Assembly: GCF_034661295.1 (NCBI RefSeq)
Contig: NZ_CP141062.1
Coordinates: forward strand, 2,232,001 to 2,296,000
DNA length: 64,000 nt
Direction of reading: 5' to 3'
Source: Faecalibacter sp. LW9
Lineage (GTDB): Bacteria > Bacteroidota > Bacteroidia > Flavobacteriales > Weeksellaceae
Shown here: positions 17,775 through 58,390 of the stretch, in pieces
Position numbering within the stretch: position 1 is the first letter of the stretch
How the letters are laid out: every line of letters starts with the position of its first letter
Notes under the pieces: model-generated
Databases searched by the model: none
What the model was told of the DNA's origin: nothing
What the model saw: the letters and a program-made list of their open reading frames with translations, nothing else
Position numbers and translations under genes: made by a program

Positions 17775-17821
17775 AAGTTATTGAATTTTTCTTTTGTAAC
17801 TAAAATTCGAAAAGTGTTTAG

Positions 17822-17895
17822 GGTGAATGATGGGTCTCGAACCCACGACCTCCGAACCACAATCCGGCGCTCTAACCAACTGAGCTACAATCACC
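17822..17895 (-). tRNA. Damaged tRNA-His copy with a 1-base deletion in the anticodon stem
   Basis: This copy is identical to its neighbours except that the 3' side of the anticodon stem reads TTCGG instead of TTCCGG. The loss of one C means the five-pair stem can no longer form with a 7-base loop (only three pairs with a 10-base loop remain). It is 74 nt instead of 75 and is probably not functional as tRNA-His. A sequencing error in the array is the alternative. Confidence 0.8.
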
Positions 17896-20068: not shown

Positions 20069-23000
20069 TTATTTTTTATGCAAGTATTTAGGTACTAAAC
20101 GAGAGGCTAATGTCAAAATAACCATCATCGCTAATGTCCAATAAATCCAATCTGGAATTGGAACTGGATCTCCTGCTGCATATGAGTGTAAACCAGATAA
20201 ATAGTAGTTTACTCCAAAATACGTCATAATCACTGACCATATACATTGCTGCAACATTAAAAGTCCAAAATCCTCTTAAACCTGGCACTAATCGCATGTG
20301 TAATACAACAGCATAAACAATTACAGAAATAAAAGCCCAAGTTTCTTTTGGATCCCAAGACCAATAACGACCCCAAGATTCATTCGCCCACATTCCTCCT
20401 AAGAATGTACCAATTGTTAGCAAATAGATCCCAATGGTTAAGGACATTTCTGAGACATAAGACATTTCTTTGATTGAAACTTCAATTTTCTTATTCTGTT
20501 TAAACATCATAATAATTAAAGCAAAGAATCCTAATACTGCACTTAATCCAAAGAATCCATAAGATGAAACAATAATGGCAACGTGTACAATTAACCAATA
20601 TGATTTAAGTACCGGTACTAAAGGTGTAATTTGTGGATCTAGCATAGCTCCACCATGAGCAAATCCCATCATAATCACAGCAACCATTGCTCCCGTTGCA
20701 GGAATAAAAGCATTACGATTTTTATGTAAAATTAAACCAGCTAATACACCCACCCAAGAAATAAATATAATGGCTTCATATCCATTTGACCATGGCGCGT
20801 GTCCTGTTAAATACCATCGAATTCCTAATCCAATAGCATGCGCCAGGAAGACGATAAAGGTTAACCCTAAAACGACATTAATGGCATATTTAACAAATTT
20901 ATTTTCAGTAAATAATTGAACAAAGGCTAAAATGATCAAGATAGAAGCTACAACGAAGTAAGCAATCATTATCCAAAAGAACACATTGGCTTTGTTATAG
21001 AAAACTTCTAATTCTACCTTTTGTGCGGATGGTACAACATTTTTACCCCATTTTTGTTGGTATTCGTTGATGTAATCGATGGCATTATTAGCAGCTGTAA
21101 AATCACCTGACTTCATTCCCTCAGAAACCATGTTCATATAAACTGAAACCATCCCTAGAGCTAGAGTGTCAATTTCAACAGGTTTTTCATTGGTTTGATA
21201 AATCCAAGATGTCCAACGGTTAGTAGGGTCATTTTGAACAGGGATTATTTTTAATTGATATCCTTTTGCTGTATTATCTAAAATATTAAAGCGTTCTGTA
21301 ACTGCAATTACTTCTTCATCAAATTTAGAACGTTCTGCAGGTTTACGAGAAAAAGCTTCACTGTATAATTTATCTAACTTAAATCGTGTCGTTTGTGGAT
21401 CAACTAAATTCATTAATGAAGTATATCCTTCATCATTAGCATTTGTTAATTGTTTCAATTGATCACCCCCTTTGCTACCCACTTTAATTAATGGAGCATT
21501 TGCCCAATAAGCAGGATCCATTTGTAAAGAGATAAACCATTGATCAGATGTTAATCCATGATACTTATCTTTTTTGTAGATTTTTCGTAAAATTTCTAAA
21601 GATTGAGTATTAATTGGTTTAATACGTCCTTCAATATCTTGAATCAATAAGTGACCAAAACGATCGGCATGCTCAACAGGTATTTTAAGGTTTTGTACTA
21701 ATGTCTTCGGATCAGACATTTCTTTCGAAACCCCGTGATTTGCATGAGGAGCTTTAATTTGTTGCTCTTTTGTTGGTTCTCCATGTCCTTCTCCTGGTGC
21801 ATGATCATGACCAGCGTGAGGATCAGTCGCTTGACCAAAAGCTAAGATAGAGAAGAAGAAAGGAATTAAAATTAAAGTTTTCTTTTTGTGTAGATTTTTT
21901 AATAAATCATTCAAATGTAAGAAACGTGTTCCTTTCCAGAATAATGATACGAACATACCTCCAAATAATAAGAAATATCCAACATAGGTAATATTTGTTC
22001 CCCACCAGTCTTGATTTACAGATAAAACAGTACCGTTTTCTGTAGGGAAGTAACTTGATTGGAAGAAACGATACCCTTTATAATCCATTACATTGTTCAT
22101 GTAAATGTGTTGCGGTGTTTCAACTCCTTCATCAATCACTGTAATTTTAGATTCAAATGATGATGGATTCGTTGAACCAGGATAACGATCTAAGATAAAG
22201 TCATCTAAACGTATGCTAAATGGTGTTTTTACAATACGAGCACCGTATCCTAATGAAATATTTAAACCATCGATTGAAACATCGGCAGTATAATTCTGTT
22301 GACCTTGACCACCAACAATTGTAACTGTATCTCTTTTGTCTCCAACAATCACTTCGGCACGAATTGCACCAGGTAAATTTTTTTGTTCAGGATGATGTTT
22401 ATTCCCTTCACTGTATACAACTTCACCTAAGAATGCAGGGTTTGGAATTACAAATTGGGCGTTAAGTATTGAATATAAAGAACGTAATTTCAAAGGTTCC
22501 ATCACATTGAAACCTACTTTACCTGCTGATTCTTTTAATTTCGCTTCATCAGTAACAATACCAATTTGCTGTCCGGTCATTTGAACGTACTCTCCTTCGA
22601 ATGGGGATTTGATGGTTAAATTTTCACCTTCACCCATTATTTGTACAGTACCTTCCATTGGACGATTGAAAGAAACTAATGTTCCTCCTAAAGATTTAAT
22701 TTCACCAGACTTGATGAATACAGATTGACGTCCACCTTCACCAATAGTTACTAATTCTAAAATAGGTTTACCCGTTGATTTTCTAACAATTGTATCTAAA
22801 GCATGAGGGATATAATCGAACGTTTTTAACGTGATTAATTTATTTTTGAATTGATATTGACCTTCGAAATTGCGATAGAACATTGAATTTGTGCTATCCT
22901 TTCGGTCAAAATAAGTCATTTCGTAGTTGTGATTATCGTATGCTAAACGCTGATCACCATCATCTACGATTAATTTGAAGTAATTTTTATAGGATACAAT

Positions 23001-37130: not shown

Positions 37131-37667
37131 TTAAATTTTTTCGTGTGTGGGCCTAATTAATCGATCCGTTTCATAACCCAACGCTTCAGCTTTTTGTAAG
37201 AATCTTGATTTAATCCCATCTGGAATTGATTTTTGACGAGATAATATCCATAAGTAATCCGTGTTTTTTCCGGCAACTAAAGCATATTGGTAATGTTCAT
37301 CTAAGTCGATAACATTATAAGCAGAATACAATGGACCAAAGAAAGAAACTTTAAATTTACCATATCCAGGTTTGGTTTGTTTGGCAATTCCTTTACTTTT
37401 TTTCCATTCTTTTTTCTTCTCATCATATCCTCGGTTAATCACTTGTACCGAACCATCTTCATTCATTAAGTAACGAGCGGTTGTATTGGTTTTGTCCTTT
37501 TCCCAATAAAAATCCATTCGAGCAATCTCGTACCATAATCCTAAATATTTATTAATATCAAAATTTGGTACAACTTCGAACGCAATATTCTTATCCGATC
37601 GATTTCTGATAAGATAGGCTGCAGCACCAAGCGCTAAACCAGCAAGTGCCATATTTTTATATTTCAT
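37131..37667 (-). CDS. Lipocalin family protein (Blc-like)
   Basis: This 178-residue protein has an N-terminal hydrophobic anchor (MALAGLALGAAAYLI) and a lipocalin barrel. The first conserved motif is NFDINKYLGLWYEIARMDFYWE (GxWYEIAR), and YQYALVAGKNTDYLWILSRQKSIP is the last motif, as in Blc/apolipoprotein D. By family it binds lipids, perhaps lysophospholipids, in the envelope. It has no lipobox Cys, unlike E. coli Blc. Confidence 0.9.
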   Translation of the reverse strand: MKYKNMALAGLALGAAAYLIRNRSDKNIAFEVVPNFDINKYLGLWYEIARMDFYWEKDKTNTTARYLMNEDGSVQVINRGYDEKKKEWKKSKGIAKQTKPGYGKFKVSFFGPLYSAYNVIDLDEHYQYALVAGKNTDYLWILSRQKSIPDGIKSRFLQKAEALGYETDRLIRPTHEKI

Positions 37668-39433: not shown

Positions 39434-39838
39434 TTATTTTAAAGTTAAATAACGAATTCCGTCACGATTTTCAATGGTAATAATATGATGTTCTTCTGGA
39501 ATCAAATTTTCAACGCGTGATGGTCATTCCATCAAGCAATATGCATTTGAATAAAAATAGTCTTCGATCCCAAAGTCTAAAGCTTCTTCTTCATCATTTA
39601 AACGATAAAAGTCAAAATGATATACTTTCCCTTTTTCTGTATCATATTCATTTACAATTGAAAATGTAGGGCTAGAGATATCATCATCTGTTCCTAATAA
39701 TTTTACAAATTCTTTAATGAATGTCGTTTTTCCAGCTCCCATTTCTCCTTCAAAACAGATTAGTTTATACTCTAATTGTTTTAAAATTTCTCCCGCTACT
39801 TCCGGAATTTGATCTAAACCATTAATTTGATATTCCAT
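39434..39838 (-). pseudogene. tsaE: TsaE, tRNA t6A biosynthesis ATPase, interrupted by an in-frame UGA
   Basis: Read through, the frame encodes a normal 134-residue TsaE. The P-loop is GEMGAGKTTFIKEF near residue 35 and SSPTFSIVNEY is switch-like. YHFDFYRL follows, and the family block CLMEWPSRVENLIPEEHH would be next, ending RDGIRYLTLK. In the sequence given, the Trp codon of EWP is TGA (39524-39526) instead of TGG, which truncates the protein at 104 residues. Downstream codons stay in frame and conserved, so this is one G-to-A change. TsaE is needed for t6A37 in nearly all bacteria, and this Trp is conserved near the nucleotide site. It could be a recent mutation or a base-call error. Confidence 0.88.
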
Positions 39839-50233: not shown

Positions 50234-50977
50234 TTACGTGTGCATTCCTCCGTCTACACTTAATACTTGGCCAGTTACATAACTTGATAAATCAGAGGCT
50301 AAATATAAACAAGCGTTGGCTACATCTTCTGGTTGGCCTACACGTTTTAATGGAATACCTGCACGCCATTCTTCAACGACTTTAGGATCTAAAACTTCAG
50401 TCATTTCAGTTTCAATAAATCCTGGTGCAATGGCATTGCAACGAATATTACGAGAACCTAATTCTAATGCAACCGATTTTGTAAATCCAATTAGACCTGC
50501 TTTAGAAGCCGCATAATTTGCTTGTCCTGCATTTCCTGTAATTCCCACAATTGATGACATGTTCACGATTGAACCTGAACGTTGTTTCATCATCGGTTTG
50601 ATTACAGCTTTTGTTAAATTGAATGCAGAATTTAAGTTGGTTTGAATTACTTTTTCAAAATCATCTGAAGACATTCTCATTAAAAGTCCATCTTTTGTAA
50701 TCCCTGCATTATTAATTACAATATCAATTTGTCCAAATTCAGCTAAAACATCTTCCACTAATTTTTGAGCAGCATCATAGTCTGAAGCGTCCGATTGATA
50801 CCCTTTTACTTTTCCGTATTGTCCTAACTCAGCTTCTAAAGCTTGTGCTTTTTCTACTGAAGATGCATATGTAAAAACAACGTTCGCACCATTTTTTACA
50901 AAAACTTCAGCAATGCTTTTTCCAATACCACGTGTAGCACCAGTTATAATTGCAGTTTTTCCTTGTAATAAGTTCAT
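50234..50977 (-). CDS. fabG: 3-oxoacyl-ACP reductase
   Basis: This is a 247-residue short-chain dehydrogenase. The NADP loop is TGATRGIGKSIAE (residue 12), then NNAGITKDGLLMRM and the catalytic Ser138 region SIVNMSSIVGITGNAGQANYAASKAGLIGF (Tyr-x-x-x-Lys), ending TGQVLSVDGGMHT. This is a textbook FabG, reducing 3-ketoacyl-ACP in fatty acid elongation. It stands apart from other fab genes. Confidence 0.95.
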   Translation of the reverse strand: MNLLQGKTAIITGATRGIGKSIAEVFVKNGANVVFTYASSVEKAQALEAELGQYGKVKGYQSDASDYDAAQKLVEDVLAEFGQIDIVINNAGITKDGLLMRMSSDDFEKVIQTNLNSAFNLTKAVIKPMMKQRSGSIVNMSSIVGITGNAGQANYAASKAGLIGFTKSVALELGSRNIRCNAIAPGFIETEMTEVLDPKVVEEWRAGIPLKRVGQPEDVANACLYLASDLSSYVTGQVLSVDGGMHT

Positions 50978-52865: not shown

Positions 52866-52926
52866 AAGTTTCCTGGTTTAGCATTTGTTTAATGAGGTTG
52901 CAATCAGTCAAATCATTCCTCTCGAT
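52866..52926 (-). ncRNA. SAM-II-type riboswitch upstream of metK
   Basis: On the minus strand the leader reads GAGG (P1), GATTTGACTGATTGCAA, CCTC (P1'), then AAATGCTAAA. The published SAM-II aptamer has the same plan: GAUUUAACCGUAUUGCAA in the P1 loop and AAAUGUAGCUAAA in the 3' part. ACTGA in the loop can pair with TCAGT further on to form the pseudoknot. The 3' region is longer than in classic SAM-II and may match the 'long loops' variant of Bacteroidota. It is 47 bases from the metK ATG and directly follows a TATATTTG promoter. Confidence 0.65.
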
Positions 52927-52938
52927 AATTTGTGGGTT

Positions 52939-57286: not shown

Positions 57287-58390
57287 TTATTTTGATGAGG
57301 TTTCTTTTTGTCCCATCAACATTAAGAATGATTTCAAGAAATCATCCAAATCACCATTCATAACAGCATCCACATTTCCTGTTTCATGCCCTGTACGAAC
57401 GTCTTTCACTAATTTATAAGGATGCATTACGTAATTACGAATTTGTGATCCCCATTCAATTTTCATTTTGTTGGCTTCAATCTCATTACGAGCAGCCATT
57501 TTCTTTTCAAGCTCAATTTTGTATAACTCCGATTTTAACATTTCCATGGCACGTTCACGGTTAGCAAGCTGAGAACGCTCCACTTGACAAACAACAACAA
57601 TACCTGTTGGTTTATGAGTTAATTGAACTTTAGTTTCTACTTTGTTGACATTTTGACCTCCGGCACCTCCCGAACGAGAAGTTTGTAATTCGATATCTGA
57701 TGGATTAATTTGAATATCGATGGTATCATCAACAATTGGAGAAACATACACTGAAACGAAAGATGTATGACGTTTCGCATTGGAATCAAATGGAGAGATA
57801 CGAACCAAACGATGAACCCCATTTTCACCTTTTAAGTATCCAAAGGCATATTCACCATCAATTTCTAAAGTAACTGTTTTAACACCTGCAACATCACCAT
57901 CTTGATAGTTTAATTCTTTTACTTTATATCCATGTTTTTCAGCCCACATTAAGTACATACGCATTAACATACTTGCCCAATCACATGATTCTGTACCTCC
58001 GGCACCCGCAGTAATTTGTAATACAGCTCCTAAATTATCTCCTTCCTCAGACAGCATGTTTTTAAATTCAGTTGCTTCGATTAAATCCAATGCAATTTTG
58101 TATTGTTCATCAACCTCTTCATCTGTTACATCACCTTCTTTATTGAATTCGACTAGAACTTCAAGATCATTTACGGCTGAAGCAATACTATGGTATTCAT
58201 CAACCCATTTCTTTTTTCCTCGAAGTACACGCATAAAAGCTTCTGCTTCTTTTGGATTGTTCCAAAATTCAGGAGACGCAGCAGTTTCTTCTTCATTCTG
58301 AATTTCGATTTCTTTTTGTTCGATTTCTAAATAATTATGTAATTCAGCAGTGCGCTGTTGTAAGTCTTTTAATAAATCTGTATTAAACAT
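57287..58390 (-). CDS. prfB: Peptide chain release factor 2, no programmed frameshift
   Basis: This is a 367-residue class I release factor. The GGQ motif lies in [16 protein letters not shown] and the stop-codon reading tripeptide SPF in [12 protein letters not shown], which marks RF2 (UAA/UGA). It is encoded in one uninterrupted frame: the region of codons 20-30 reads LHNYLEIEQ with TTA GAA, and the CUU-UGA-C frameshift site found in many prfB genes is absent. RF2 autoregulation by frameshift is therefore missing. Confidence 0.95.

Follow-up and report, generated by a model that had tools for sequence, protein, structure and literature searches.

The window analysed here is a 64,000-nucleotide stretch of the genome of Faecalibacter sp. 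LW9 (Weeksellaceae; single contig, 3,172,297 bases, rated 99.97% complete), whose closest relatives among named taxa are Faecalibacter macacae and F. rhinopitheci, followed by Empedobacter. Its minus strand carries a frame for TsaE (YjeE), the ATPase subunit of bacterial t6A synthesis, with a single internal stop (TGA at codon 105), so that the frame is not open over its whole length in the assembly (Table 1). With codon 105 read as Trp, the protein scored 129.4 bits against Pfam PF02367 (cut-off, 26.6) and 117.1 bits against NCBIfam TIGR00150 (cut-off, 60.1), above both curated cut-offs for the family, whereas the frame as assembled encodes 104 residues and ends one codon before a conserved Trp. 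The window also holds prfB and a SAM-II riboswitch (64.3 bits).

Table 1. Features of the window and lone in-frame stops in the LW9 genome. Positions without a prefix are those of the window; a hyphen within a sequence marks a codon boundary.
Feature	Location	Strand	Description
tsaE frame	39838-39434	minus	with read-through at codon 105, 134 sense codons and then TAA
In-frame TGA, codon 105 of tsaE	39526-39524	minus	TGG in the 93 other loci read
GGTC (GACC on the coding strand)	39522-39525	plus	GGCC in sister species G001, G006 and G007
tRNA-His, one of five tandem genes	17821-17894	minus	one C of CC lacking just 3' of the anticodon
Lipocalin gene	37131-37667	minus	GGCC at 37150
FabG-like reductase gene	50234-50977	minus	GGCC at 50335
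SAM-II riboswitch	52868-52927	minus	
prfB (release factor 2)	57323-58369	minus	one open frame; programmed-frameshift stop near the start not seen
M.HaeIII orthologue	C1:2090510-2091529		intact
298-residue ORF	L119 2783-3676	plus	divergent from the M.HaeIII-like gene
Adjacent cysN-like and TauE-like genes	L114 about 1400-2800 (G000:C1:2501400-2502800)		compared with sister G006, one frameshift and five stops, all off GGCC
Sodium/solute symporter	first 185 kb		lone stop, TAG-GCC
DUF2459 protein	first 185 kb		lone stop, TAG-GCC
Lipoyl synthase (lipA)	first 185 kb		lone stop, GCC-TAA
RhlE-like DEAD-box helicase	first 185 kb		lone stop, TAG-GCC
Aminotransferase	first 185 kb		lone stop, TGA-GCC (sister, TGG-GCA)
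tsaE	first 185 kb		lone stop, TGA-CC, codon 105
TonB-dependent receptor	new 102 kb		lone stop at GGCC
Flavin oxidoreductase	new 102 kb, L294:13340		lone stop at GGCC
NlpC/P60 protein	new 102 kb		lone stop at GGCC
C1-like peptidase	new 102 kb, L281:3826		lone stop, TGA-TCA, off GGCC

The tsaE loci of relatives were collected with six peptide patterns, one of which contained the Trp in question. The homologous codon was readable in 94 of 97 loci (several of them the same genome from two collections); 93 read TGG, and the one TGA was LW9's own copy. F. rhinopitheci, for example, has ATGGAA TGG CCATCA where the LW9 assembly has ATGGAA TGA CCATCA, and tsaE was free of stops in all 13 other genomes of the genus searched. 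A search of the order with PF02367 gave a match in 370 of 395 genomes, 315 of them above the cut-off; no tsaE stop was seen among the best matches listed, and LW9's own entry lay outside these, so the search yields no fair base rate. Among the matches listed, those of genus g32 (genomes of about 0.6 Mb) were very weak or lacking; TsaE may be absent there, possibly as a natural case of life without it.

Against three sister species, the 29 codons after the stop differed at 10 to 13 synonymous and 2 to 4 residue-changing positions, and the 104 codons before it at 31 to 33 and 13 to 15, respectively. Since the post-stop frame is constrained like the pre-stop frame, the tsaE frame is genuine, not a chance extension, and bears a single lesion in the assembly; since relatives also lack the stop, the lesion is either very young or not real. 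Both the replacement of a conserved Trp codon by TGA and the continuation of the frame beyond it, as claimed in the original prediction, are thus borne out. That the tsaE change falls on a GGCC, and that it belongs to several such stops in the assembly, lay beyond its view.

On the coding strand, the change is TGG-CC to TGA-CC, that is, GGCC to GACC. In the LW9 genome, the C5 DNA methylase family is matched three times, once by an intact orthologue of M.HaeIII (E value, 1.5e-131 to 1dct). M.HaeIII targets GGCC, and the base changed in tsaE is the C that it methylates. Among the sisters, G001 and G007 gave no match to this methylase and G006 only distant ones, and in G008 an M.HaeIII-like match (71 to 77% identical) lies in two pieces with stops. 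The divergently oriented 298-residue ORF beside the LW9 gene has no Pfam or NCBIfam match and is a candidate restriction partner. GGCC is under-represented against the Markov expectation in 464 kb of the LW9 genome (136 seen, 297 expected); in the sisters, for which small stretches were counted, the ratio was near 1.

Interior stops were sought by comparing the proteins of sister G001 with stretches of the LW9 genome, which matched 185 kb of coding DNA at first and a new 102 kb later. This comparison replaced an earlier coding-potential scan with 43 candidates, many of which were, by eye, gene ends or antisense frames. The first 185 kb gave 16 stop rows. Six lay in a fully conserved context (19 or 20 of 20 neighbouring residues equal), and all six of these lone stops were on or against GGCC. 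The other 10 (at most 17 of 20 neighbours equal) were set aside: L105:1993, L114:5175/5184, and L278:2161 each precede an ORF; L280:17275 comes 5 residues short of the end of its gene; L280:11300 is in a doubtful 107-residue frame; L114:6750/6765 is in a gene seemingly frameshifted near A-runs and counted as a broken gene off GGCC; and L114:17469/17547 falls early in a sister frame of 558 residues, with TAA present at the first site in a second sister as well.

The GGCC prediction was noted in advance of the second round, in which the new 102 kb gave seven stop rows. Three were discarded: L294:5708 precedes an ORF, and L292:4414/4543 run antisense to one. Three of the four lone stops that remained were at GGCC. 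One of these, L294:13340, was kept despite only 13 of 20 equal neighbours because it interrupts a clear flavin oxidoreductase gene. Over the whole 287 kb, nine of 10 lone stops, tsaE included, are on or against GGCC (eight of nine with 18 of 20 equal neighbours demanded, which removes L294:13340), and GGCC with 3 nucleotides on either side makes up 0.31% of bases. Besides tsaE, the lone stops are those at L100:8797, L105:13844, L278:16994, L279:4443, L283:14193, L291:15720, L291:7410, L294:13340, and the off-motif L281:3826. Seven of the nine adjoin an intact GGCC; in tsaE and the aminotransferase gene the stop itself appears to replace part of one, judging from the Trp codon and the codon beside it. 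When G001 was instead the genome scanned (183 kb at first, 302 kb in all), no stop lay in a comparably conserved context: the first round had 11 stops and one frameshift with at most 12 of 20 neighbours equal, and the two stops added later fell in one doubtful 102-residue frame.

Codon differences other than stops were also examined. Codons under a TA flank of GGCC differed from the sister at 14 of 20 sites, against 18 of 108 for other flanks (P = 4e-6), a pattern that was spotted by eye before it was tested; in the newly covered DNA, the counts were 3 of 4 and 11 of 64 (P = 0.025). The sister had no such effect (1 of 5 against 21 of 79, then 1 of 4 against 13 of 74). In the same motif table, CCGG and GTAC in LW9 and ACGT and GTAC in the sister also reached a nominal P of <0.05, with smaller effects. 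TA flanks accompanied 45 of 374 GGCC sites in LW9 and 18 of 270 in three sisters (P = 0.03). Across all codons that overlap GGCC there was no excess of differences (17 of 118, against an average of 14.4%); a general corruption at the motif was therefore rejected, and the excess is confined to TA flanks. A Trp codon followed by a conserved Pro necessarily creates GGCC, and such Trp codons were lost in two of nine cases, against 3 losses among 438 other Trp codons (P = 0.0035); the test includes tsaE, and one of the three other losses is the GGCC-linked stop of the aminotransferase gene.

Two further genes of the window deserve mention. In the lipocalin gene, Trp-Pro of the sister reads Arg-Pro (AGG-CC), which is the same GGCC signature in the form of a missense change. 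The FabG-like reductase, 97.6% identical to its sister over the match, has Gly replaced by Val next to GGCC (GTAGGCC); this may be natural or may be the same signature.

Other genes are broken away from GGCC. LW9 had one frameshift row in the first round (window position 20235) and two more in the second, one of them in a stretch of seven T. Because the L114 case escaped the detector, the frameshift count is too low. Altogether, at least four frameshifts and the degraded cysN/TauE-like cluster are not at GGCC. The genes of this cluster were found against G006 only, are missing from the aligned parts of two other sisters, and were counted as multi-lesion pseudogenes. Frameshifts in homopolymers would also fit long-read errors. 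One tRNA-His copy of the window reads ttcgg for ttccgg, and ARAGORN gives it no anticodon because of the missing C; it is either a decayed copy or a one-base assembly error.

Judging from the assembly, we consider it highly probable that the tsaE TGA is a systematic assembly error, absent from the organism. The DNA would be methylated at GG(5mC)C, the assembly would rest largely on nanopore reads, and GGCC would be miscalled at a minority of sites; in tsaE, GACC called for GGCC would turn TGG-CCA into TGA-CCA, and the cell would then have an ordinary full-length TsaE with Trp105. The encoded methylase, the clustering of lone stops on GGCC, and the GGCC-to-GACC change jointly point to a call error as the cause, and a systematic error of this kind would explain the whole stop set at once. 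A literature search on the sequencing of the LW9 strain found nothing useful.

Errors of this type have been described elsewhere. According to passages of PMC12345217, nanopore discrepancies in two Pseudomonas aeruginosa isolates (PA068 and PA188) fell almost exclusively at GGCC, usually as a G-to-A change of its second base, the change that gives GACC in tsaE; as in LW9, only a minor share of GGCC sites was affected. The same passages report no consistent methylation at these sites, and the part that we assign to the methylase is our own inference. The P. aeruginosa errors were proved against short reads, whereas the LW9 case is known from the assembly alone, and LW9 differs further in that it encodes the methylase and in that most of its linked stops lie in the flank of an intact GGCC. 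In Neisseria (passages of PMC12506013), 199 of 208 false single-nucleotide polymorphisms were G or C positions called A or T, and 152 fell at 5mC calls. These errors resemble ours in base change, in falling at 5mC positions (presumed in LW9), and in strain dependence; they differ in that the passages name no motif and in that they were shown by PCR-based libraries. The published G-to-A type is found in LW9 only in tsaE and, at the first G, in the aminotransferase gene; stops of the form TAG-GCC, or directly following GGCC, are not described in the passages of either paper, and for these flank changes the miscalling mechanism is presumed. The one lone stop of ten that is off GGCC (L281:3826), the other broken genes off the motif, and the merely average rate of difference in codons overlapping GGCC also count against the error reading.

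Deamination of 5-methylcytosine is the main rival to base-call error. A real point mutation, in which the 5mC of GG(5mC)C on the plus strand became T by deamination, would have left TGA in the tsaE of this isolate, where it might be tolerated through a 104-residue TsaE, slow t6A synthesis by TsaD-TsaB, or low-level readthrough of UGA. The changed base is the one methylated by M.HaeIII, an orthologue of which is encoded. Deamination cannot, however, create stops beside an intact GGCC (seven of the nine linked stops), and there is no genome-wide loss of GGCC against the sisters in the four-way alignment (18, 15, 10, and 18 sites). Plain genome-wide deamination was rejected on these similar counts, which show no genome-wide signal; in a direct test of GGCC change, only four sites were conserved enough, and the one that had changed fits tsaE. 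Joint loss of lipoyl synthase, a helicase, and TsaE, each through a gene that is otherwise intact, would be strange as well.

Whether a cell could live with the truncated protein bears on the same rival. Passages of PMC4330362 describe the matching residue of Escherichia coli TsaE, Trp109, as a switch residue next to the Mg-binding Glu108, so the original prediction was sound in placing the Trp near the nucleotide site. The W109A variant lost ATPase activity with t6A synthesis in vitro unaffected (same passages), so the Trp alone is not decisive; truncation at codon 105 also takes away the 29 conserved residues that follow, and the same passages call TsaE essential in E. coli. Passages of PMC11648230 report basal TsaD-TsaB activity for the proteins of Thermotoga maritima and Aquifex aeolicus but not for those of E. 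coli or Bacillus subtilis. A search for a second tsaE in the LW9 genome, as had been proposed, found none, the only other PF02367 match being below the cut-off. Loss of the t6A pathway was rejected, since neither the TsaD match nor the other PF00814 match, interpreted as TsaB, contains a stop. Taken with these points on both sides, a real deamination in tsaE is unlikely.

A real mutation process directed at GGCC, writing stops and other changes beside the motif genome-wide, would account for the strong link of lone stops to GGCC beyond C-to-T changes. It is very improbable: conserved housekeeping genes are struck while the rest of each gene is intact, published sequencing error (passages of PMC12345217) fits part of the pattern, and the protein beside the methylase, lacking any family match, is a restriction partner in candidacy only. 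Very little probability likewise attaches to a composite in which such a process, acting through deamination of methylated sites and flank change, hit tsaE and lipA and the real stops are tolerated, in tsaE via leaky UGA reading by the A24 tRNA-Trp.

The least credible reading, programmed or conserved UGA readthrough or reassignment of UGA to Trp, draws on the single tRNA-Trp (CCA), with A24 and a G27.U43 pair; according to passages of PMC13092985, E. coli tRNA-Trp reads UGA more readily when positions 24 and 43 are changed. These features could be usual in the phylum, however, the stop is absent from the 93 other loci and the 13 genus genomes, and recoding was rejected with no stop-reading anticodon, an open prfB, and, by eye, no frameshift site near the prfB start. 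Specifically, UCA, CUA, and UUA anticodons were absent among the tRNA genes found by ARAGORN, and in the stretches holding 99 tRNA matches the only tRNA-Trp anticodon was CCA; 150 of the 358 candidates were scored at first look, and an unusual tRNA may have escaped notice. Suppression of the UGA, one of the options first raised, thus found no suppressor anticodon among these genes. As for nucleotide context, the original prediction held UGA followed by C to be prone to readthrough in many systems; the abstract of PMC5289835 reports reduced readthrough with U at +4. Among the four options originally offered (truncated protein sufficient, readthrough, suppression, or call error), the call error is by far the best supported, and the biological framing under which they were presented is not so supported.

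With base-call error as the preferred reading, tsaE is very probably intact in the organism, and no special biology is needed. By extrapolation only, nine GGCC-linked stops in 287 kb suggest dozens of false stops in this genome, rated 99.97% complete. For any single in-frame stop, a cheap test is to ask whether the lesion lies on the motif of an encoded methylase and whether lone stops elsewhere share that motif. The finding is of little import as biology and of more as a caution: lone in-frame stops in assemblies of methylated genomes may mimic pseudogenes or exotic recoding.
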